Shown here: piece after piece, positions 5,034 to 15,892 of the stretch
Numbering within the stretch: the first letter of the stretch is position 1
Layout of the letters: every line of letters starts with the position of its first letter
Assembly (NCBI RefSeq): GCF_001528665.1
Contig: NZ_BBYJ01000010.1
Span: forward strand, 62,001 to 126,000
Reading direction: 5' to 3'
DNA: 64,000 nucleotides
Origin: Microtetraspora malaysiensis
GTDB taxonomy: Bacteria; Actinomycetota; Actinomycetes; Streptosporangiales; Streptosporangiaceae
The notes under the pieces: model-generated
What the model was told of the DNA's origin: nothing
What the model saw: the letters and a program-made list of their open reading frames with translations, nothing else
Database searches by the model: none
Position numbers and translations under genes: made by a program

Positions 5034-6951
<1,918 letters not shown>

Positions 6952-7025
6952 GCAGACGGCGTCGAATGCTCCGGACGGTGAGGGGCCGGACACATAACCG
7001 GCCTTCCGCTGGAAAGGGGGCGAAC

Positions 7026-7271
7026 ATGAGGGACGACGAGATCCTCCGCCGCATCGACGAGCTCATCGACGAGGAGCACACCCTACGCGGAAGGCTGGCG
7101 GCGGGAGAGCTCACCACCGAGGACGAGCACGAGCGGATCCGGACGCTGGAAAGCGCGCTCGACCAGTGCTGGGACCTGCTCAGACAGCGCCGGGCCAGCA
7201 GGGACGCCGGAGAGGACCCCGACATCGGCATACCGCGGCCGGTCGACGAGATCGAGGACTACGAGCGGTGA
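7026..7271 (+). CDS. DUF2630 family protein
   Basis: An 81-residue acidic, mostly helical protein: DDEILRRIDELIDEEHTLRG, then TTEDEHERIRTLESALDQCW and DLLRQRRA. This two-helix coiled-coil pattern and length are those of the actinobacterial DUF2630 family, whose function is unknown. GGAAAGGGGG lies five to six bases before the ATG at 7026. A GGCCGG-8-CCGGCC inverted repeat at about 6985-7004 lies in its promoter region. The gene is divergent from leuA and its leader. Confidence 0.88.
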   Translation: MRDDEILRRIDELIDEEHTLRGRLAAGELTTEDEHERIRTLESALDQCWDLLRQRRASRDAGEDPDIGIPRPVDEIEDYER

Positions 7272-7389
7272 CGCGCGTCCGCGGCCGCACATAGGCGAGC
7301 GCCGGGGCCGTCCCGCCGCCGCGCTGGGGCGGCCCGGATGCTCCGTCCGGATAATCGGTCGCACCCCGACCGGCCCGTGCGGTTTCCTG

Positions 7390-8379
7390 GTGCGCATGCA
7401 CTTCGAGCGCCTCCGCCTCTCCGACCCCGGCGACCGGGTGGCCGGCCTGTACGCGATCCACCAGGCCGTGGACGACCCCGGAGCCCCGATGTCGCCGCGG
7501 CACTTCTCGTCCATGCTGGAGAGTGGCTGGACGGGCGAGCCCGGGGAGAGCTGGGTCGTCAGGGTGGACGGCGAGATCGCCGGCGGCTACACCCTGTACT
7601 ACCCGCGGGAGGACAACACCCATATCGCGAACCTGGTCTTCCTCCTCGTCCACCCCGATCGACACCGCCGGGGCCTGGGCGGGGCTTTGCTGGACCACGC
7701 GATCGGCCGAGCCCGCGACGAGGGGCGCAGTCTCCTCATCGGCGAGACGCCGACGGGCGGTCCGGGCGAGGCCTTCGCGAAGGCGAAGGGTTTCGCGAAG
7801 GCCACGGCGGAGGCGCGCCGCGTCCTCGACCTGCGCACCGTGGACTGGGCGTCCTTCGAGCTCATGCGGGCCGACGCGGCCCGCCACGCGCGGGGGTACA
7901 CGCTCGAACGGTGGGCCGGCCCGGCGAGTGACGAGTTGCTCGACGACCTGGCGCTCCTGGCGGCGTCCATGAACGACGAACCGCTGGGCGACCTGGAGAT
8001 GGAGGGCCATCGCTGGACCGCCGAGCGGATGCGGGCCGGCGACGAGGAGGTGGCGCGGGCCGGGCTCACGGCCTACACGATGATCGCCCGGCATGCCGCC
8101 GGCGGCGAGCCGGCGGGCTTCACCCGGATCCTGGTGGACGCGGAGGAGCACCGCGGCTGGGCGCGGCAGGTGGACACCGGCGTGCTCCGGGCGCACCGCG
8201 GCCACCGGCTCGGGGCGGTGCTCAAGCTGGCCAACGCCGCCTGGCTGCACGCCTGCGAGCCGGCTGTCGAGCGCATCATCACCTGGAACGCCGATTACAA
8301 CGCGTACATGCTGCGGATCAACGAGCTGATGGGGTTCCGCCTGCTGGACACCTGGAACGCGTGGCAGCTCCGCGTCTGA
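7390..8379 (+). CDS. tandem GNAT acetyltransferase
   Basis: A 329-residue protein with two GNAT folds, like mycothiol synthase and other actinobacterial double-GNAT proteins. The first domain has FLLVHPDRHRRGLGGALLDH at about residues 95-115, the acetyl-CoA pyrophosphate loop. The second has TGVLRAHRGHRLGAVLKLAN near residue 265-285, an equally clear loop, so both could bind acetyl-CoA. The ending (WNADYNAYMLRINELMGFRL) is typical of the family. The substrate is unknown. The start is GTG at 7390 or ATG at 7396; no convincing ribosome site is present, while GATAAT at about 7347-7352 could be a -10 box. Confidence 0.85.
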   Translation: MRMHFERLRLSDPGDRVAGLYAIHQAVDDPGAPMSPRHFSSMLESGWTGEPGESWVVRVDGEIAGGYTLYYPREDNTHIANLVFLLVHPDRHRRGLGGALLDHAIGRARDEGRSLLIGETPTGGPGEAFAKAKGFAKATAEARRVLDLRTVDWASFELMRADAARHARGYTLERWAGPASDELLDDLALLAASMNDEPLGDLEMEGHRWTAERMRAGDEEVARAGLTAYTMIARHAAGGEPAGFTRILVDAEEHRGWARQVDTGVLRAHRGHRLGAVLKLANAAWLHACEPAVERIITWNADYNAYMLRINELMGFRLLDTWNAWQLRV

Positions 8380-8419: not shown

Positions 8420-10717
8420 GTGGCGTCAAACGGTGGAAATCCCGATGAATCCCCGACAGGTGACGCCCTGCGCGAGGGGGATCCTCGCCGGGTCGGACCG
8501 TTCACCCTGCTCCGCCGGCTCGGCCAGGGCGGCATGGGCACCGTCTACCTCGGGCGCGCCCCCGGCGGCGACCCGGTCGCGGTCAAGCTCATCCACCCGC
8601 AGTGGGCCGCCGACCCCGACTTCCGCCGCCGCTTCACCCGCGAGATCTCCGCGGCCCAGCGCGTCGCCCGCTTCTGCACCGCCCCCGTCCTGGCCGCCGA
8701 CGTCGAGGGCGACACCGCCTATCTCGTCACCGAATATGTCCCGGGGCCCACGCTCCAGCAGGCCGTACGCGACCACGGGCCGCTCAGCGGCTCGCATCTC
8801 GAGAGCGTCGCGGTGAGCGTCGCGGTCGCACTGCAGGCCATCCACGCCGCCGGGATCGTCCATCGCGACCTCAAGCCGGGGAACGTCCTGTTGTCTCCGC
8901 TCGGTCCCAAGGTGATCGACTTCGGCATCGCCCAGCTCGCCGAAGCCGGCGCCAACGTCAGCAGCGCCATCGTCGGCACCCCCGCCTACATGCCCCCCGA
9001 ACAGGCCAGAGGCGAACACGTCACCCCCGCCTCCGACATCTTCGCCTGGGGCGCCCTCGTCGCCTACGCCGCCTCAGGCCACGCCCCCTTCGGCGACGGA
9101 CCACCGCCCAGCGTCCTCTACCGCGTCGTCCACCACGAACCCGACCTCACCGCACTCGAACCCCACCTACGCGCCACCGTCGCCCACACCCTCGCCAAAG
9201 ACCCCGCCCACCGCCCCACCGCGCAACAACTCCTCGACACCCTCACCCGCCGCACCCCCGCCGGTCAGGCCCCGTACGCGCGGGACAGCGCCGAGCCCGT
9301 TGAGACCAGTGGAACGCATGAGACCGGTGGGCCCGGCTCCACGGCGAGCACAGGCGGTATGGCGCACGAGGGCACGGTCGTCGCACGACGCAGGACCGGG
9401 GTCCTCGCCGGGGCGGCGGCCGCCGCCGTCGCGCTCCTGACGGCCGGGGTGGTCGTCGCCCTGCGGATCGGCGCGGCGGGCGGCGACGACGGTTCGCCGG
9501 GACAGGCGATCACCTCGCGGAGCGCGTCCGCGCCGCCCGCGGCCACCGCCGCCACCTCCCCCGCCGCGGCGGGAGGCGGGACCGGCGGGGAGTCCGACGA
9601 TGTGAAAAACAACGCGAAAGACGACACGACAGGCGACACGACAGACGGCGCGAACGACGGCGCGAAGGACGGCAACCCGCTGACCGGCCGTGCCGTCCGG
9701 CTCTATGTGAGCCCCGACGGCGACCCGGCCCGCCAGGCGTCTGCCTGGCAGGCGGCGGGGCGGCACGGCGACGCCGCCCTCATGCGGGCGCTCGCCCGGG
9801 TCCCGCGGTCGGTCTGGCTGGAGGCGCGCATGACCGACGCCGACGCCGCCCGGATCGTGAACACGGCACTCGACGCGGCAGGGAAGCAGGGGGCGGTCCC
9901 CGTGTTCGTCACGGACCGCCTGCCGCTGCGCGACTGCTACCCCAACGGCGCGCCCGACTCGCGGGCGTACGCGTCCTGGATCGGCGCGATCGCCACCGCC
10001 ATCGGCGACCGCCCGGCCGTGGTCGTCCTGGAGCCCAACAGCCTGAGCAAGGTCCCGGGCACGCCGGGCTGCGCCCTCGGTGGCCCGAACGGCGAGCAGA
10101 CCCGCTACGACCAGCTCTCCAGCGCGGTCAAGCGGCTCGGCGCACTCCCGCGGACCGCGGTCTACCTCGACGGCGGACAGCGGTACTGGCCGTCGATCGA
10201 GGACGCCGCGAGCCGCCTGATCAAGGCGGGCCTGGACCAGGCCGACGGATTCTTCCTCAACGCCTCCGGCTTCCAGCCGACCGACACCGTCGAGGCGTAC
10301 GGCGTGCGGCTGGCGAAATGCGTGCACCTCACGAAGACGGGCGGCGGGAGCCGCTGCCTCGGGCCCGAGGTGGACGCGGTTCCCGACGACACCCCGGGGC
10401 TGCCCCATTTCGTCATCGACACCGGCAGGAACGGCAGGGGCGAGTGGCGTCCGCCGGCCAAGAAATACAAGCAGGCCCAGGAGTGGTGCAACCCGCCCGG
10501 CCGGGGTCTCGGCCCGCGCCCCGCAACGGACACCGCGAGCGGGCTGGCCGACGCCTACCTGTGGATCCGCGACCCCACCAAGTCGAACGGCACCTGTACA
10601 CGCGGCGCCTCCGGGCCGGAGGACCCCGTCTACGGGCTGGTGGCGCCGCGCGGCGGCGAGTTCTGGCCGGACCTCGCCCTCCAGCGGGCCAAGGACGCCG
10701 TCCCGCCCCTGTCCTGA
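8420..10717 (+). CDS. Ser/Thr kinase with membrane segment and inactive-looking GH6 (cellulase-fold) ectodomain
   Basis: This 765-residue protein joins three parts. Residues about 27-285 are a Hanks-type kinase: glycine loop GQGGMGTVYLG, VAVK (K56), HRDLKPGN (D150), DFG (D167) and PPEQ. Residues about 328-350 form one membrane helix, after which a Thr/Asp-rich linker leads to the C-terminal half (about 419-765). That half is a glycoside hydrolase family 6 domain with PLRDC, EPNSL, VYLDGG, GFFLNASGF, FVIDTGRNGRGEW and DAYLWI motifs. The GH6 catalytic acid (Asp in EPD) is Asn540 and the base Asp of the PGExDG motif is Asn723. Asp505 (RDC) and Asp584 (YLDGG) are kept. I infer a receptor kinase sensing beta-glucan or a similar cell-wall ligand. 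Its close paralogue lies directly downstream. Confidence 0.9.
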   Translation: MASNGGNPDESPTGDALREGDPRRVGPFTLLRRLGQGGMGTVYLGRAPGGDPVAVKLIHPQWAADPDFRRRFTREISAAQRVARFCTAPVLAADVEGDTAYLVTEYVPGPTLQQAVRDHGPLSGSHLESVAVSVAVALQAIHAAGIVHRDLKPGNVLLSPLGPKVIDFGIAQLAEAGANVSSAIVGTPAYMPPEQARGEHVTPASDIFAWGALVAYAASGHAPFGDGPPPSVLYRVVHHEPDLTALEPHLRATVAHTLAKDPAHRPTAQQLLDTLTRRTPAGQAPYARDSAEPVETSGTHETGGPGSTASTGGMAHEGTVVARRRTGVLAGAAAAAVALLTAGVVVALRIGAAGGDDGSPGQAITSRSASAPPAATAATSPAAAGGGTGGESDDVKNNAKDDTTGDTTDGANDGAKDGNPLTGRAVRLYVSPDGDPARQASAWQAAGRHGDAALMRALARVPRSVWLEARMTDADAARIVNTALDAAGKQGAVPVFVTDRLPLRDCYPNGAPDSRAYASWIGAIATAIGDRPAVVVLEPNSLSKVPGTPGCALGGPNGEQTRYDQLSSAVKRLGALPRTAVYLDGGQRYWPSIEDAASRLIKAGLDQADGFFLNASGFQPTDTVEAYGVRLAKCVHLTKTGGGSRCLGPEVDAVPDDTPGLPHFVIDTGRNGRGEWRPPAKKYKQAQEWCNPPGRGLGPRPATDTASGLADAYLWIRDPTKSNGTCTRGASGPEDPVYGLVAPRGGEFWPDLALQRAKDAVPPLS

Positions 10718-10767
10718 CGACGGCGACCTCCGCGGCCGGCCGATCACGAGCACGCAGCGACCCACGG

Positions 10768-12924
10768 ATGGGACCGATGACGAACGATGACGTGGGCGAG
10801 CCGCTCCGCGACGGCGATCCCCGGGAGGCGGGCGGCTACCCGCTCCTGCGCCGTCTGGGGCAGGGCGGCATGGGCACCGTCTACCTCGGGCGCGCCCCCG
10901 GCGGCGACCCGGTCGCGGTCAAGCTCATCCACCCGCAGTGGGCCGCCGACCCCGACTTCCGCCGCCGCTTCACCCGCGAGATCTCCGCGGCCCAGCGCGT
11001 CGCCCGCTTCTGCACCGCCCCCGTCCTGGCCGCCGACGTCGAGGGCGACACCGCCTATCTCGTCACCGAATACGTCCCTGGACCCACCCTCCAGCAGGCC
11101 GTACGCGACCACGGGCCGCTGACCGGAGCGAGCCTGGAGGCGGTCGCGGTCAACGTGGCGGTGGCTCTGCGGGCGATCCACGACGCGGGCGTGGTGCATC
11201 GCGATCTGAAGCCCGCCAATGTCATCCTGTCGCCGGTCGGTCCCAAGGTGATCGACTTCGGCATCGCCCAGCTCGCCGAAGCCGGCGCCCACGTCAGCAG
11301 CGCCATCGTCGGCACCCCCGCCTACATGCCCCCCGAACAGGCCAGAGGCGAACACGTCACCCCCGCCTCCGACATCTTCGCCTGGGGCGCCCTCGTCGCC
11401 TACGCCGCCTCAGGCCACGCCCCCTTCGGCGACGGACCACCGCCCAGCGTCCTCTACCGCGTCGCCCACCACGAACCCAACCTCACCGCGCTCGAACCCG
11501 GCCTGCGCGCCACCGTCGCCCACGCCCTCGCCAAAGACCCCGCCCACCGCCCCACCGCGCAACAACTCCTCGACACCCTCACCCGCCCCGCCGCGGATGT
11601 CCGTACGGGCGGGGAAACGGATGCCGTCGAGAGCACCGAGGGTGGAACGGCGCTGAGCCGGCAGCGCCGCAAAAGGGTCGTCGCGGGCACCGCCGTCGCC
11701 GCGCTCGTCACGGCGGGCGTGCTCATCGCCACCCAGGCGCCGCAGGCGCGCGAGGGGCAGGGTGAGACGGCGCGATCCACCGCCGCGAGAGCCACACCAT
11801 CGGGCGAGCCGTCGCCGCCGCTCCCCTCGCCGGGAGCGACCGGAGCGACCGGAGCGGGGGCACAACCAGGCGGGCATCCGCTGGCGGGAGACGGCGTCCG
11901 GTTCTACGTCGCCCCGGACGGCGACGCGGCCCGCCAGGCGTCGATCTGGAAGGCGGCCGGGCGGGGCGGGGACGCGGCCCTCATGCGGGCGCTGGCCCGG
12001 GTGCCACAGGCGGTCTGGCTGGACCGCCTGACCCCGGCAGAGGCCGCCGCCACCGTCACCTCGGTCATGGGGACGGCGACCCCGCAGGGGACGGTGCCCG
12101 TCCTGGTCACCGACCACATCCCGCTGCGCATCTGCGAAGGCGGCGAGGACGGCGGCGCGGCCGACTCGGCCGGTTATCTCGCCTGGATCGACGCGATCGC
12201 CACCGCCATCGGGGACCACCCGGCCGTGGTCATCCTGGAACCCAACAGCCTCGTCATGCCGCCCGGGTCCCGAGAATGCGATCGCGACGGCCCGGAGGAG
12301 GCGGAGGCCAGGTTCCGCGACGTGGCGGCGGCGGTCGACCGGCTCGGCGAACTGCCGCGCACCGCCGTCTATCTCGACGGCGGCGTGGACGGCTGGCCCG
12401 ACCTCCGCACCTCCGCCCTCCGGCTGATCAGGGCGGGTGTCGACCGGACCGCCGGCTTCTACCTCAACGTGTACGACCACCAACCCACGCGACGTCTCAC
12501 CACTTATGGGACGAAGCTCTCCAAATGCCTCCAGGTCATGACGTCGAACGCGAGCGGGACCTGCACCGACGCCGAACTCGACGCCGTCTCCGTGGACCCC
12601 CCCGGGCTCGCCCACTTCGTGATCGACACGGCCCGGAACGGCAGGGGCGCGTGGCGCCCGCCCGCCGGAAAGTACGCGGACCCTCAGGAATGGTGCAACC
12701 CACCGGAGCGCGGCGCGGGTGTCCGCCCCACCACCGACACGGCGAACGAGCTGGCCGACGCCTACCTGTGGATCCGCCCGCCCGGCGCGTCCAGCGGCGC
12801 GTGCACCCGCGGCGGCCCCGGCCCCGAGGACCCGGCGTACGGAACCGTCGCCCCGCATTTCGGCGCGTGGTGGGACCGGCTGGCCCTCGAACGCGCGCGG
12901 AACGCCGTGCCGCCGCTGCGCTGA
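10768..12924 (+). CDS. paralogous Ser/Thr kinase with inactive-looking GH6 ectodomain
   Basis: This 718-residue protein has the same order as the preceding one. The kinase occupies residues about 22-285 (K52, D146 in HRD, D163 in DFG), a membrane helix lies near 304-323, a short Pro/Thr/Gly linker follows, and the GH6-like domain covers 371-718. The ectodomain is more degenerate: RDC has become RIC (Ile455), EPD is EPNSL (Asn493), and the base Asp position is Ser676. VYLDGG (Asp537) and FVIDTARNGRGAW remain. All kinase catalytic residues are intact, so only the sensor part has lost enzyme activity. The start may be ATG 10768 or ATG 10777. The gene begins 50 bases after its paralogue and is probably co-transcribed. 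Confidence 0.9.
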   Translation: MGPMTNDDVGEPLRDGDPREAGGYPLLRRLGQGGMGTVYLGRAPGGDPVAVKLIHPQWAADPDFRRRFTREISAAQRVARFCTAPVLAADVEGDTAYLVTEYVPGPTLQQAVRDHGPLTGASLEAVAVNVAVALRAIHDAGVVHRDLKPANVILSPVGPKVIDFGIAQLAEAGAHVSSAIVGTPAYMPPEQARGEHVTPASDIFAWGALVAYAASGHAPFGDGPPPSVLYRVAHHEPNLTALEPGLRATVAHALAKDPAHRPTAQQLLDTLTRPAADVRTGGETDAVESTEGGTALSRQRRKRVVAGTAVAALVTAGVLIATQAPQAREGQGETARSTAARATPSGEPSPPLPSPGATGATGAGAQPGGHPLAGDGVRFYVAPDGDAARQASIWKAAGRGGDAALMRALARVPQAVWLDRLTPAEAAATVTSVMGTATPQGTVPVLVTDHIPLRICEGGEDGGAADSAGYLAWIDAIATAIGDHPAVVILEPNSLVMPPGSRECDRDGPEEAEARFRDVAAAVDRLGELPRTAVYLDGGVDGWPDLRTSALRLIRAGVDRTAGFYLNVYDHQPTRRLTTYGTKLSKCLQVMTSNASGTCTDAELDAVSVDPPGLAHFVIDTARNGRGAWRPPAGKYADPQEWCNPPERGAGVRPTTDTANELADAYLWIRPPGASSGACTRGGPGPEDPAYGTVAPHFGAWWDRLALERARNAVPPLR

Positions 12925-13008
12925 GGGCGTAGGCGGCGGGGGACGGGGTTCTGTCGGCCCAGGATGCTAAGAATCTCGCATCGCCCCCGACGAGCGAAGG
13001 GACGTCCG

Positions 13009-13401
13009 ATGGCGTTGGTCACCTTCCGCGATGAGACCGCGACCGGCAGGTCGCTGGACGAGTTCGTCCTGCCCGGCCTGCCCGAACGGATCACCGCCCG
13101 AGAGCTGGTACGGCTGCGCGTGCGCGAGGAGGTCGCCCGATACAACGCGGCTCCGTCGGCTCACTTCCGCGGCCTGGTCCGGCCGACCGAGGCCGAGGCC
13201 GAGCTGAACGGCTACCGGATGCGCGCCGCCCGCAGGCTCGACTGGGAGCGGCAGGCCGACGCCGCCGAGGCGGCGTTCGCCCGCAACGGCTTCATCCTCC
13301 TGGTCGGCGACCGGCAGATCGAGGACCTGGCCGACGAGATCGACCTGACGGCCGACCCCGTGGTGTCCTTCGTCAAGCTCGTTCCCCTGGTCGGGGGCTG
13401 A
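13009..13401 (+). CDS. hypothetical protein paired with DUF4132 gene
   Basis: A 130-residue protein I do not recognise. It starts MALVTFRDETATGRSLDEFV, is rich in Arg and Glu, and ends DLTADPVVSFVKLVPLVGG. There is no signal peptide or membrane helix, so it should be cytoplasmic. The middle (about 50-95) is predicted helical and includes an Arg/Glu-alternating stretch. GAAGGGA at about 12995-13001 supports the ATG at 13009. It precedes the DUF4132 gene by 70 bases on the same strand and is likely functionally tied to it. Confidence 0.7.
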   Translation: MALVTFRDETATGRSLDEFVLPGLPERITARELVRLRVREEVARYNAAPSAHFRGLVRPTEAEAELNGYRMRAARRLDWERQADAAEAAFARNGFILLVGDRQIEDLADEIDLTADPVVSFVKLVPLVGG

Positions 13402-13471
13402 CCGTGGGCGTCGTCGACGAGCTTGCCCACCGGTCCGGCCCGCCGTTCGAGAAGGGCGACCGCATGCTGTC

Positions 13472-15892
13472 GTGATCCTCCCCACGGAGTTCCTCCTCGA
13501 CGACATCCTCAACGACATCGCCGTCGCCGATCCGGCCGTCGCCCCGCCACATCAAGGGATGATCCTGATGCCCCTCTCTCCCGCCGCGCTGACCCTGCGC
13601 GCGCTCATGACCGACCCGGCCGCCACCGGCGACCCGTGGTTCGAGCAGTCCTACCTGACCGCCTCCGACCTGGGCACGCTCCTGCCGTACGCGTACCGGA
13701 CGACGGGGAGCGGACGCACGTCGATCTCGGCGAGGTTCGTGGTGGAGGACGCCGTCAAGGAGCGCCAGCCGTCGTTCACGCCGGAGGCGTGCGCCGACCT
13801 GTTCCTGGCCCTCGTGGACGGGCTGCCGGAACGCGAGTGGTCCGACCTTCCCCTGGCGGCGGCGGCGCTGGTGCGCTGCCCCGGCGGCCCGCCGCATGCC
13901 GACCTCGCCGAGCCCGCGCGGGAACTGGTGCGCTTCCACCTCGCCGCGGACCGCGTCGAGCACCCGCACGCGCTGCTGGTGGTCGCCGGGCTCGCCGGGC
14001 TGGACGAGGAGGTGGCCGCGGTGCTCAGGGACGCGCCGGGTTCGATCGCCGTGGGCGAGATCGACCTGCTGCTCGGGTGGGAGGCGGAGCGCCGGGCCCT
14101 GCTGGCCGAGGTCACCGAGAGGAGCTACGGCTGCCCTCCCCCGCTGCCCGACGCCTGGGAGCGGCTGGCCGCGATCCCGGAGTACGCGGCCTTCGCCCGC
14201 TCCGCGCTGGAAGCCGCCGACGCCAGGGTCGCCGCCATCCACGCGGGCGAGATCCCCTATCGCGCCGACCGCGCCTTCGACGACAAGGAGAAGGACGTGC
14301 TCGGCCGGGCCGTACGGCTGGCGCTGCGACAGGACGAACCGTGGCTGCCCGACCTTTTCGACCGGCTGGCGCGCGGCGTGGCCGTGGCGCCCACCGCGGC
14401 GCGGACGCTGCCCTCCCAGGGCCTGCTGTACGAGATGGCCCGCGCCGCCGTGGAGTTCCCGACCCCGGAGGCGATCGACGCGCTGCGGGCCGCGCGGGAG
14501 GTGACGCGGCACGCGAGCGTGCCCAAGCGACTCGACCGCACGACCAAGGGGATCGAACGCGCGCTGGCCGATCGGGTCGAGGTGGCCTTCCGGATGCCGG
14601 ACCTCGGGTTCGAGCCGGGCGGCCGGCTCCGCGTGCCCCTCGGCGGGCACGCGGCCGTGATCTCCGTCGGCGACGACGTCGAGCTGACCTGGTGGCAGGG
14701 TGACAAACGGCTCAAAGGGGTGCCCGCGGCGGTACGGCGAGACCACGCCGACGAGGTCAAGCGCCTGCGCGACCTGACCGGGCGAGCCCGCCGGCAGCTC
14801 ACCACGCTGATCCGCGCGCTGGAGGCGGGATTCCCCGGCGAGACCGCCCATCCGTACGCGACCTGGCGGCGGCTGGCCGGCCATCCGATCGCCGGGACCG
14901 TCGCGCGGCGGCTGATCTGGGAGATCGAGGTCTCCCCCGGGCGGCGGGTGAGCGTACTGGGCGGCGCCTCGGACACCGACATCGCCGGAATCGCCGGGGT
15001 CGCGCCGCCACCCGACGCCCCGGTCCGGCTGTGGCATCCGGCCCGCGCCTCTCTCGACGACGTTCGCGCCTGGCGCGAACGGGTCAGCGAGGAGCGGATC
15101 AGGCAGCCGTTCAAGCAGGCGTTCCGCGAGATCTACCCACTCACCCCCGCGGAGGAGCGCACCGGCGGCTACTCCAACCGGTTCGCCGCCCACGTGGTGG
15201 ACTACCGGAAGCTGTACGCGCTGTTCAAGCAACGCGGCTGGGCGGCCGACATGCTGGGCCCGTGGGACGGTGGCCGCCACGGCGAGGCCCAGTGCGTGCT
15301 GGCCGGAGGACGCTGGCGGGCGTCGTTCCTCCACGAGGCCGACGATTCGGGCGAGCACGCCACCACCGACCAGATCCGCTTCAATCGCAACGAAAACGGC
15401 GAGTGGCGGCAGGTGGCGCTCACCGAGGTGCCGCCGCTGGTGTTCAGCGAGGCGATGCGGGACGTGGACCTGTTCATCGCGGTCACGTCGATCGCCACCG
15501 ATCCCGGGTGGGCCGACCGCGGCGACGGCCACCGCGACTACTGGCATACTGCCGCCTTCGGCCCGCTGCCGCCGTCGGCCGAGGTCCGTCGGGACGCGCT
15601 GGCCCGCCTGCTGCCGCGCACCGCGATCGCGGAGCGCTGCGTCCTGACGGACCGCTATTTGATGGTCCGGGGCGATCTGCGGAGCTACCGGATCCATCTG
15701 GGCAGCGCCAACATCCTCATGGATCCCAGCGACGTCTACCTGTGCGTCGTCAGCGCCCCGCACGCGGCCGACGACGTCTTCCTGCCGTTCGAGGAGGACG
15801 GGCGACTCGGGCTGATCCTCAGTAAGGCGTTCCTGCTGGCTCGCGACAGCGAGATCGAGGACGAGTCCATCCTGCGGCAGATCAAGGGGTGA
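13472..15892 (+). CDS. DUF4132 domain protein (MolR-like)
   Basis: An 806-residue protein whose C-terminal half resembles the DUF4132 family, to which E. coli MolR belongs. The marker region is at about residues 405-445: VELTWWQGDKRLKGVPAAVR, with the helical stretch RLRDLTGRARRQLTTLIRAL after it. Residues 545-650 (FKQAFREIYPLTPAEERTGG, then YSNRFAAHVVDYRKL) are also typical of the family. The N-terminal half is helical and repeat-like. The biochemical role is not established. The GTG at 13472 overlaps the stop of a 23-codon frame (13404-13475) as GTGA; an ATG at 13559 is an alternative start. A 16-bp stem follows the gene at 15931. Confidence 0.8.
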   Translation: MILPTEFLLDDILNDIAVADPAVAPPHQGMILMPLSPAALTLRALMTDPAATGDPWFEQSYLTASDLGTLLPYAYRTTGSGRTSISARFVVEDAVKERQPSFTPEACADLFLALVDGLPEREWSDLPLAAAALVRCPGGPPHADLAEPARELVRFHLAADRVEHPHALLVVAGLAGLDEEVAAVLRDAPGSIAVGEIDLLLGWEAERRALLAEVTERSYGCPPPLPDAWERLAAIPEYAAFARSALEAADARVAAIHAGEIPYRADRAFDDKEKDVLGRAVRLALRQDEPWLPDLFDRLARGVAVAPTAARTLPSQGLLYEMARAAVEFPTPEAIDALRAAREVTRHASVPKRLDRTTKGIERALADRVEVAFRMPDLGFEPGGRLRVPLGGHAAVISVGDDVELTWWQGDKRLKGVPAAVRRDHADEVKRLRDLTGRARRQLTTLIRALEAGFPGETAHPYATWRRLAGHPIAGTVARRLIWEIEVSPGRRVSVLGGASDTDIAGIAGVAPPPDAPVRLWHPARASLDDVRAWRERVSEERIRQPFKQAFREIYPLTPAEERTGGYSNRFAAHVVDYRKLYALFKQRGWAADMLGPWDGGRHGEAQCVLAGGRWRASFLHEADDSGEHATTDQIRFNRNENGEWRQVALTEVPPLVFSEAMRDVDLFIAVTSIATDPGWADRGDGHRDYWHTAAFGPLPPSAEVRRDALARLLPRTAIAERCVLTDRYLMVRGDLRSYRIHLGSANILMDPSDVYLCVVSAPHAADDVFLPFEEDGRLGLILSKAFLLARDSEIEDESILRQIKG

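Follow-up and report, generated by a model that had tools for sequence, protein, structure and literature searches.

The locus examined here raises the question of why two adjacent genes of Microtetraspora malaysiensis should each join a Ser/Thr protein kinase, through a single predicted membrane helix, to a domain with the fold of a glycoside hydrolase family 6 (GH6) cellulase, and what that domain does for the kinase. The window, as the term is used here, is the whole stretch of DNA that was analyzed, 64,000 nucleotides long. The answer we consider probable is that both genes, arranged in tandem, belong to a family of transmembrane Ser/Thr receptor kinases found in Streptosporangiaceae, and that the outer half of these proteins would be a retired GH6 endoglucanase, putatively a non-hydrolytic binding module that switches the kinase. 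The features of the two genes are as follows, with catalytic positions numbered as in Thermobifida fusca Cel6A.

8420..10717, + strand: receptor kinase copy 1, 765 aa, GTG start, kinase, membrane helix (TM), linker and pseudo-GH6 domain (ORF, Pfam)
8504..9238, + strand: copy 1 Hanks Ser/Thr kinase domain, Pfam residues 29-273
9401..9457, + strand: copy 1 membrane helix, residues 328-346 (hydropathy core window)
9674..10714, + strand: copy 1 pseudo-GH6 ectodomain, residues 419-765 (PF01341 170.9 bits, AF2, Foldseek)
9932..9934, + strand: copy 1 D505 codon, equivalent to D79 (putative base), kept (alignment)
10037..10039, + strand: copy 1 N540 codon, position of the catalytic acid D117, lost (alignment)
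10586..10588, + strand: copy 1 N723 codon, position of D265, lost (alignment)
10768..12924, + strand: receptor kinase copy 2, 718 aa from the ATG at 10768, kinase, membrane helix, linker and pseudo-GH6 domain (ORF, Pfam)
10843..11574, + strand: copy 2 kinase domain, Pfam residues 26-269, Hanks motifs intact
11677..11733, + strand: copy 2 membrane helix, residues 304-322 (hydropathy core window)
11878..12921, + strand: copy 2 pseudo-GH6 ectodomain, residues 371-718, 59% identity to copy 1 (PF01341 167.8 bits)
12130..12132, + strand: copy 2 I455 codon, position of D79, lost (alignment)
12244..12246, + strand: copy 2 N493 codon, position of the catalytic acid D117, lost (alignment)
12793..12795, + strand: copy 2 S676 codon, position of D265, lost (alignment)

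The two open reading frames lie on the + strand, 50 bases apart, and in both a low-complexity linker separates the membrane helix from a C-terminal domain of ~347 residues. The first-pass annotation had described each product as an intact Hanks kinase with one membrane helix and a GH6-fold ectodomain, and the ORF, Pfam and hydropathy analyses confirmed this architecture. The kinase halves matched PF00069 at 137.5 bits (copy 1) and 135.5 bits (copy 2), and copy 1 retains GQGGMG (residues 35-40), VAVK (53-56), HRDLKP (148-153) and DFG (167-169). The Hanks motifs tested (glycine loop, VAVK Lys, HRDLKPxN, DFG and the activation-loop GTPxYMPPE) were all present in 75 of the 76 fused proteins of the family, and exactly one membrane helix, between kinase and ectodomain, was predicted in 74 of them. 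Two features, basic residues ahead of the helix and cysteines in the outer domain, suggest that the ectodomain lies outside the cell and the kinase in the cytoplasm, and the intact Hanks motifs suggest that the protein signals by phosphorylation.

The identity of the outer domain was consistent across methods. PF01341 was matched at 171 and 168 bits in copies 1 and 2 against a cut-off of 27, and the nearest solved proteins in HMMER searches were Mycobacterium tuberculosis Cel6 (1UP0/1UOZ; 131 and 145 bits), followed by 6FAO and T. fusca Cel6A. Structure prediction, which the first-pass annotation had proposed as a check, gave a copy 1 model (AlphaFold2; pLDDT 88.9, pTM 0.90) that matches solved GH6 folds: its best Foldseek matches were solved GH6 cellulases, including 1UP0, 1UOZ, 2BOE and 1TML, with a TM-score on the target of 0.84-0.89 for the top five, and all 50 matches listed were GH6 structures or scaffolds engineered from GH6.

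HMMER alignment to 1TML, M. tuberculosis Cel6 and 6FAO, together with a multiple alignment, confirmed the equivalents of D79 (RDC motif), D117 (EPD) and D265 (GExDG), which are D505, N540 and N723 in copy 1 and I455, N493 and S676 in copy 2; every residue number given in the earlier annotation was correct. From the alignment and general knowledge of the family, we take D117 and D265 of T. fusca to correspond to D221 and D401 of TrCel6A. In TrCel6A, D221 is the GH6 acid and D175, equivalent to T. fusca D79, is the putative base, which would act by way of a water wire (PMC6091422); because the base is probably this RDC Asp, the GExDG Asp is regarded here as an accessory residue. Further losses, which the earlier annotation had not listed, were found in both copies by alignment: Y73 to Asp, H159 to Gln or Val, K259 to Arg, and E263 to Lys or Ala. 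In contrast to these lost positions, D156, N190, W162 and W231 are kept in both. Conservation in the cleft was judged at such known GH6 positions. The claim that residues were lost at the same places in both copies while the fold was retained is supported by the alignment and by AlphaFold2 and Foldseek.

The survey placed these losses in a family. Among 347 genomes of the order, 87 gave a strong match to the pseudo-GH6 alignment; in 17 of these, in two genera, the match was to unfused ORFs, and ~70 genomes in 12 Streptosporangiaceae genera carry the fused form, the split being made by genus and open-frame length and checked by kinase search on the fetched loci. A few contigs were cut in the survey, and the kinase half of those members was not seen. 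The carriers of the fusion include Microtetraspora, Sphaerimonospora, Planotetraspora, Microbispora, Planobispora, Planomonospora, Sphaerisporangium and Nonomuraea; the unfused relatives occur in Actinomadura, Thermomonospora, Streptomyces and Saccharothrix. Samples of the class (395 genomes) and the phylum (396 genomes) gave no strong match of fusion length beyond Streptosporangiaceae.

The catalytic set was complete in none of the 74 non-redundant fused domains, compared with 46 of 47 unfused domains, so that the substitutions are fixed throughout the fused clade, a point the first-pass annotation had raised together with the wider survey of kinase-TM-GH6 architectures. Its description of the ectodomain as catalytically dead is supported by the same count and by the Asn at the acid position of both window copies, as far as residues can predict activity. 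Across the 74 fused domains, the acid position was occupied by Asn in 30, Ser in 19, Gly in 16, Ala in 3, Gln in 2, Asp in 2, Glu in 1 and Lys in 1. At the putative base position D79, 50 of the 74 have Asp (as does copy 1; copy 2 has Ile). Conservation was lost in the fused group at 8 of 13 active-site columns, compared with 5 of 61 other columns conserved in the unfused group (Fisher p = 8e-5). The alignment and this contrast between fused and unfused domains ruled out an alternative acid elsewhere and chance loss. In a maximum-likelihood tree built with the active-site columns removed, the fused domains formed one clade (support 100/99) nested among intact enzymes. Since the fused clade persists without those columns, an artifact of convergent loss at catalytic sites was ruled out. 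Because the clade is single and nested in this way, we infer one fusion event from a working enzyme, as far as the sample shows.

Several individual members deserve mention. Two fused domains (L015 and L097) retain the EPD Asp with the other catalytic residues gone, and they are possible intermediates or reversions. In Microbispora sp. H13382 (L131:3062-5035), the kinase half is reduced to a matching fragment of ~70 residues without Hanks motifs, and the pseudo-GH6 frame reads through. Among plasmid records, no kinase-fusion annotation was recovered, the Nonomuraea gerenzanensis and Shinella stretches having no gene table. The N. gerenzanensis record (NZ_LT559118.1), 11.85 Mb, is a "plasmid" in PLSDB, yet chromosome-sized; the Shinella megaplasmid (NZ_CP131131.1; Alphaproteobacteria) carries a GH6 domain with 38% identity to the query across 89% of its length, and this subgroup was not expected in that taxon.

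The unfused relatives also indicate what the ancestral enzyme did. They carry signal peptides, and the translated leaders of their genes contain the recurring words WERSH and GSAP, an in-frame reading of the palindrome TGGGAGCGCTCCCA. Actinobacterial cellulose genes carry this palindrome as their CebR operator (PMC5332605; PMC4898821). A perfect copy lies upstream of 29 of the 49 unfused genes, and a copy with ≤2 mismatches in 38 of the 49; the two other GH6 genes of the M. malaysiensis genome are among the genes with the box. These two encode ordinary secreted GH6 enzymes with intact motifs, which provide internal controls, and the genome also encodes a GH48. Based on the operators of the sister enzymes, the ancestor of the fused domain very probably acted on cellulose. 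None of the 76 fused genes has a CebR operator within two mismatches, and CebR control of the fused genes was rejected on this count. In the window, no CebR site with fewer than 3 mismatches was found; the genome has 8 perfect sites, all away from the window kinases. At one locus of this genome (contig C4, site at 314312), a perfect CebR operator is followed by a LacI-type regulator and then by another Ser/Thr kinase. A CelR-boxed, CelR-regulated Ser/Thr kinase beside a LacI regulator has been reported in Streptosporangium and Thermobispora (Sros_0943/Tbis_0860; PMC3377646), and the kinase on contig C4 is likely its counterpart, distinct from the window kinases.

We also analyzed the gene neighborhoods. 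Of the kinase loci, 22 adjoin leuA and 20 adjoin a GNAT acetyltransferase gene; because other family members sit elsewhere, this looks like vertical synteny, and leuA and GNAT were rejected as functional operon partners. In the window, leuA, DUF2630 and GNAT genes (5034-8379) lie upstream of the kinase, as in ~20 loci across several genera, and the GNAT ORF ends 40 bases before copy 1. Downstream of copy 2 (12964-15892) are genes for a 145-aa protein without a Pfam match and an 806-aa DUF4132/DUF7737 protein, whose place next to the kinase is shared only by the closest Microtetraspora relatives. In Nonomuraea (L079-L097), the kinase is recurrently followed by a transporter-like gene and genes for a response regulator, a histidine kinase and a TAXI-like binding protein, named by eye. 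A scan for promoter and terminator consensus between the genes found none, and at the examined loci no neighboring gene tied the receptor to a glycan pathway.

Whether the dead domain still does something was assessed from its substitution pattern. Against Microtetraspora orthologues, dN/dS was 0.30-0.39 for the ectodomain, 0.47-0.69 for the linker and 0.19-0.40 for the kinase, by the Nei-Gojobori method, which is rough at this G+C content; by this measure, the ectodomain is shown to be under purifying selection, and its dN/dS ruled out a relic under decay. Within the old active site, all 74 fused domains have the same residue at E116, D156, N190 and W231, and 73 of them have Trp or Tyr at W162. 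The reading of a dead enzyme with a binding role, already put forward in the first-pass annotation, is well supported by these patterns.

One real possibility is that the ligand has been replaced, the domain now recognizing either another glycan, such as wall polymers of the cell itself, or a protein partner, by means of a new surface, with specificity that would differ by genus. Active-site residues are fixed differently by lineage: the K259, W41 and H159 columns show so few changes that only 2%, 3% and 7% of entropy-matched columns, respectively, show as few. P173, R338, F78 and L49 are conserved in the fused clade only, and family members occur in at least two syntenic settings. However, no partner gene conserved across all settings was found.

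It is somewhat doubtful that the receptors are strict cellulose sensors, binding cello-oligosaccharides or cellulose chains in the old cleft, with the kinase tuning cellulase output or hyphal attachment. The cellulose-regulon ancestor is consistent with this, as are the invariant W231 and nearly invariant W162, the two normal CebR-boxed GH6 enzymes and the GH48 of the same genome, and the ability of GH6 Asp mutants to bind ligand, as in PDB complexes such as HmCel6A D140A with a hexasaccharide and HiCel6A D405N. However, Y73, K259, E263 and H159 are lost and lineage-variable, W41 has become Arg or Asn in half of the family, and no fused gene carries the CebR operator. The nine lost columns have a mean of 14.1 changes compared with 11.9 for the average column; since the lost sugar-holding residues (Y73, K259, E263, H159 and partly W41) now change at an average rate, the case for a conserved glucan site is weaker. 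Furthermore, five near-complete genomes (G083, G207, G210, G213 and G330) have the receptor and neither another GH6 nor a GH48, these being the cellulase families searched. The suggestion in the first-pass annotation of a sensor of cellulose-like or cell-wall glucans therefore stands in part: a cellulose-acting ancestor is very probable, but cellulose or a cell-wall glucan is only a candidate for the present ligand, because the fused genes lack the operator, several subsite residues are unconstrained, and some genomes have no other GH6 or GH48. Ancestry argues for a beta-1,4-glucan ligand, whereas the loss of Y73, K259, E263 and H159 and the five genomes argue for a changed or broader one.

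That the ectodomain is a passive spacer or dimerization block kept for stability is improbable. The loss of its pocket residues would favor this, as would the core scaffold and six cysteines, which are among its best-conserved features; however, purifying selection over a 347-residue domain and the invariance of W231, N190, D156 and E116 exceed the needs of a spacer, and the linker evolves more freely than the ectodomain. That weak hydrolytic activity is kept, making each protein a cell-anchored enzyme with an attached kinase, is very improbable: the EPD Asp of L015 and L097 and the 2-3% activity kept by TrCel6A D175A (PMC6091422) would favor it, but the essential acid is absent in 72 of the 74 fused domains, including both window copies, and the two exceptions both lack K259 and Y73, L015 lacking the base Asp as well.

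With a non-hydrolytic binding module as the preferred reading, the relationship between the two copies suggests how such receptors may diversify. They share 92% of kinase residues and 59% of ectodomain residues, and two tracts of copy 1 kinase DNA recur unchanged in copy 2:

8525..8736, + strand: putative gene-conversion tract, 212 bp in the copy 1 kinase region with the same sequence as copy 2 at 10861-11072
8955..9128, + strand: putative gene-conversion tract, 174 bp in the copy 1 kinase region with the same sequence as copy 2 at 11291-11464

For the kinase, dS between the window paralogues was 0.20, lower than the 0.33 between copy 1 and its M. niveoalba orthologue, whereas for the ectodomain it was 0.65, higher than the 0.26 between copy 1 and M. 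niveoalba copy 1. In comparisons with M. fusca, and in those of copy 2, the kinase dS between orthologues was 0.16-0.18; the kinase contrast therefore depends on the pair, whereas the ectodomain contrast is constant. The M. niveoalba paralogues showed the same pattern (kinase dS 0.24 vs. ectodomain 0.63). Because the paralogue kinases are homogenized, in both dS and identical tracts, while the ectodomains diverge, gene conversion acting on the kinase half alone is the best reading of the pattern, and the tandem copies would then provide two inputs to one output.

From these observations, the following mechanism can be proposed. As the phylogeny shows, a secreted, CebR-controlled GH6 cellulase was joined a single time to the C-terminal side of a kinase and membrane helix. 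The fused clade has lost the catalytic residues and the CebR operator and has kept the fold. The ectodomain would most likely act as a non-hydrolytic binding module outside the cell. By analogy with other Hanks kinases, a ligand in or near the old cleft may alter the oligomeric state or spacing of the receptor and turn the cytoplasmic kinases on or off. The ligand class would most likely be a glycan, the candidates being cello-oligosaccharide or cellulose, or a glucan or other glycan of the cell's own wall or of its neighbors. In the window pair, as gene conversion suggests, diverged ectodomains and homogenized kinases may feed the same phosphorylation output from two inputs. The full account is a tentative one that may quite possibly hold: an undescribed receptor-kinase family, arising from a single fusion, in which a cellulase became a non-hydrolytic glycan receptor, the dead site was retuned by lineage, tandem copies diversify the sensor and gene conversion keeps the kinases alike, so that several glycan cues would enter one phosphorylation pathway. 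The candidate ligands are directly testable, because the fold is known, solved homologues contain bound cello-oligosaccharides, and the intact unfused sister is available as a control.

Receptor kinases of the Hanks type with PASTA or repeat ectodomains are known in bacteria. The window proteins resemble PknB/PASTA and AfsK-like kinases in having a cytoplasmic kinase, a single membrane helix and an extracellular domain, and differ in that their ectodomain is a GH6 relic. The best NCBIfam match to the kinase half was the AfsK model NF053615 (226 and 212 bits), far below its cut-off of 1300; the match covers the kinase region, plus part of the juxtamembrane region in copy 2, and membership of the AfsK family was rejected on these scores. 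To the first-pass annotation, no characterized kinase with a GH6 ectodomain was known; in agreement, no description of a GH6-kinase was found in the open-access literature searched, most subscription journals being outside its reach.

The use of a glycoside hydrolase domain as a sensing module has a precedent in RsgI6 of Clostridium thermocellum, a membrane anti-sigma factor whose low-activity GH10 outer domain still binds polysaccharide (PMC4711584). It differs in having an anti-sigma output rather than a kinase, in using GH10 rather than GH6 and in belonging to a Firmicute; since the cytoplasmic part of the window proteins is a kinase without an anti-sigma domain, an RsgI-type biomass sensor was rejected. 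In plants, tobacco CHRK1 and the GH18-kinases are receptor-like kinases with a GH-family ectodomain (PMC5485988; PMC4707873), which one of these papers considers possibly enzymatic (PMC5485988); their ectodomain is GH18 chitinase-like, and their origin is unrelated.

Compared with M. tuberculosis Cel6 and T. fusca Cel6A, the window proteins share the fold, the EP, DTxRNGxG and WCNP motifs, and cysteines; unlike active GH6 endoglucanases, they lack the acid and accessory residues, the signal peptide and the CebR operator, and are fused to a membrane helix and a kinase. The activator of bacterial Ser/Thr kinases is an outstanding question (PMC6069109). In one family of soil actinobacteria, a cellulase and a kinase appear to have been joined once to give an apparent receptor, which offers a handle on what bacterial kinases sense. 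The nearest in the tree is the unfused sister clade of Actinomadura, Thermomonospora, Streptomyces and Saccharothrix, with ~40-50% identity over the whole domain, whose members are not membrane receptors: they are secreted, have complete catalytic residues and are mostly CebR-boxed. Whether one looks at fusion, at lost catalysis or at the lost substrate-responsive operator, the division falls between the same two groups, which makes the pair of clades a natural experiment in the passage from enzyme to receptor.
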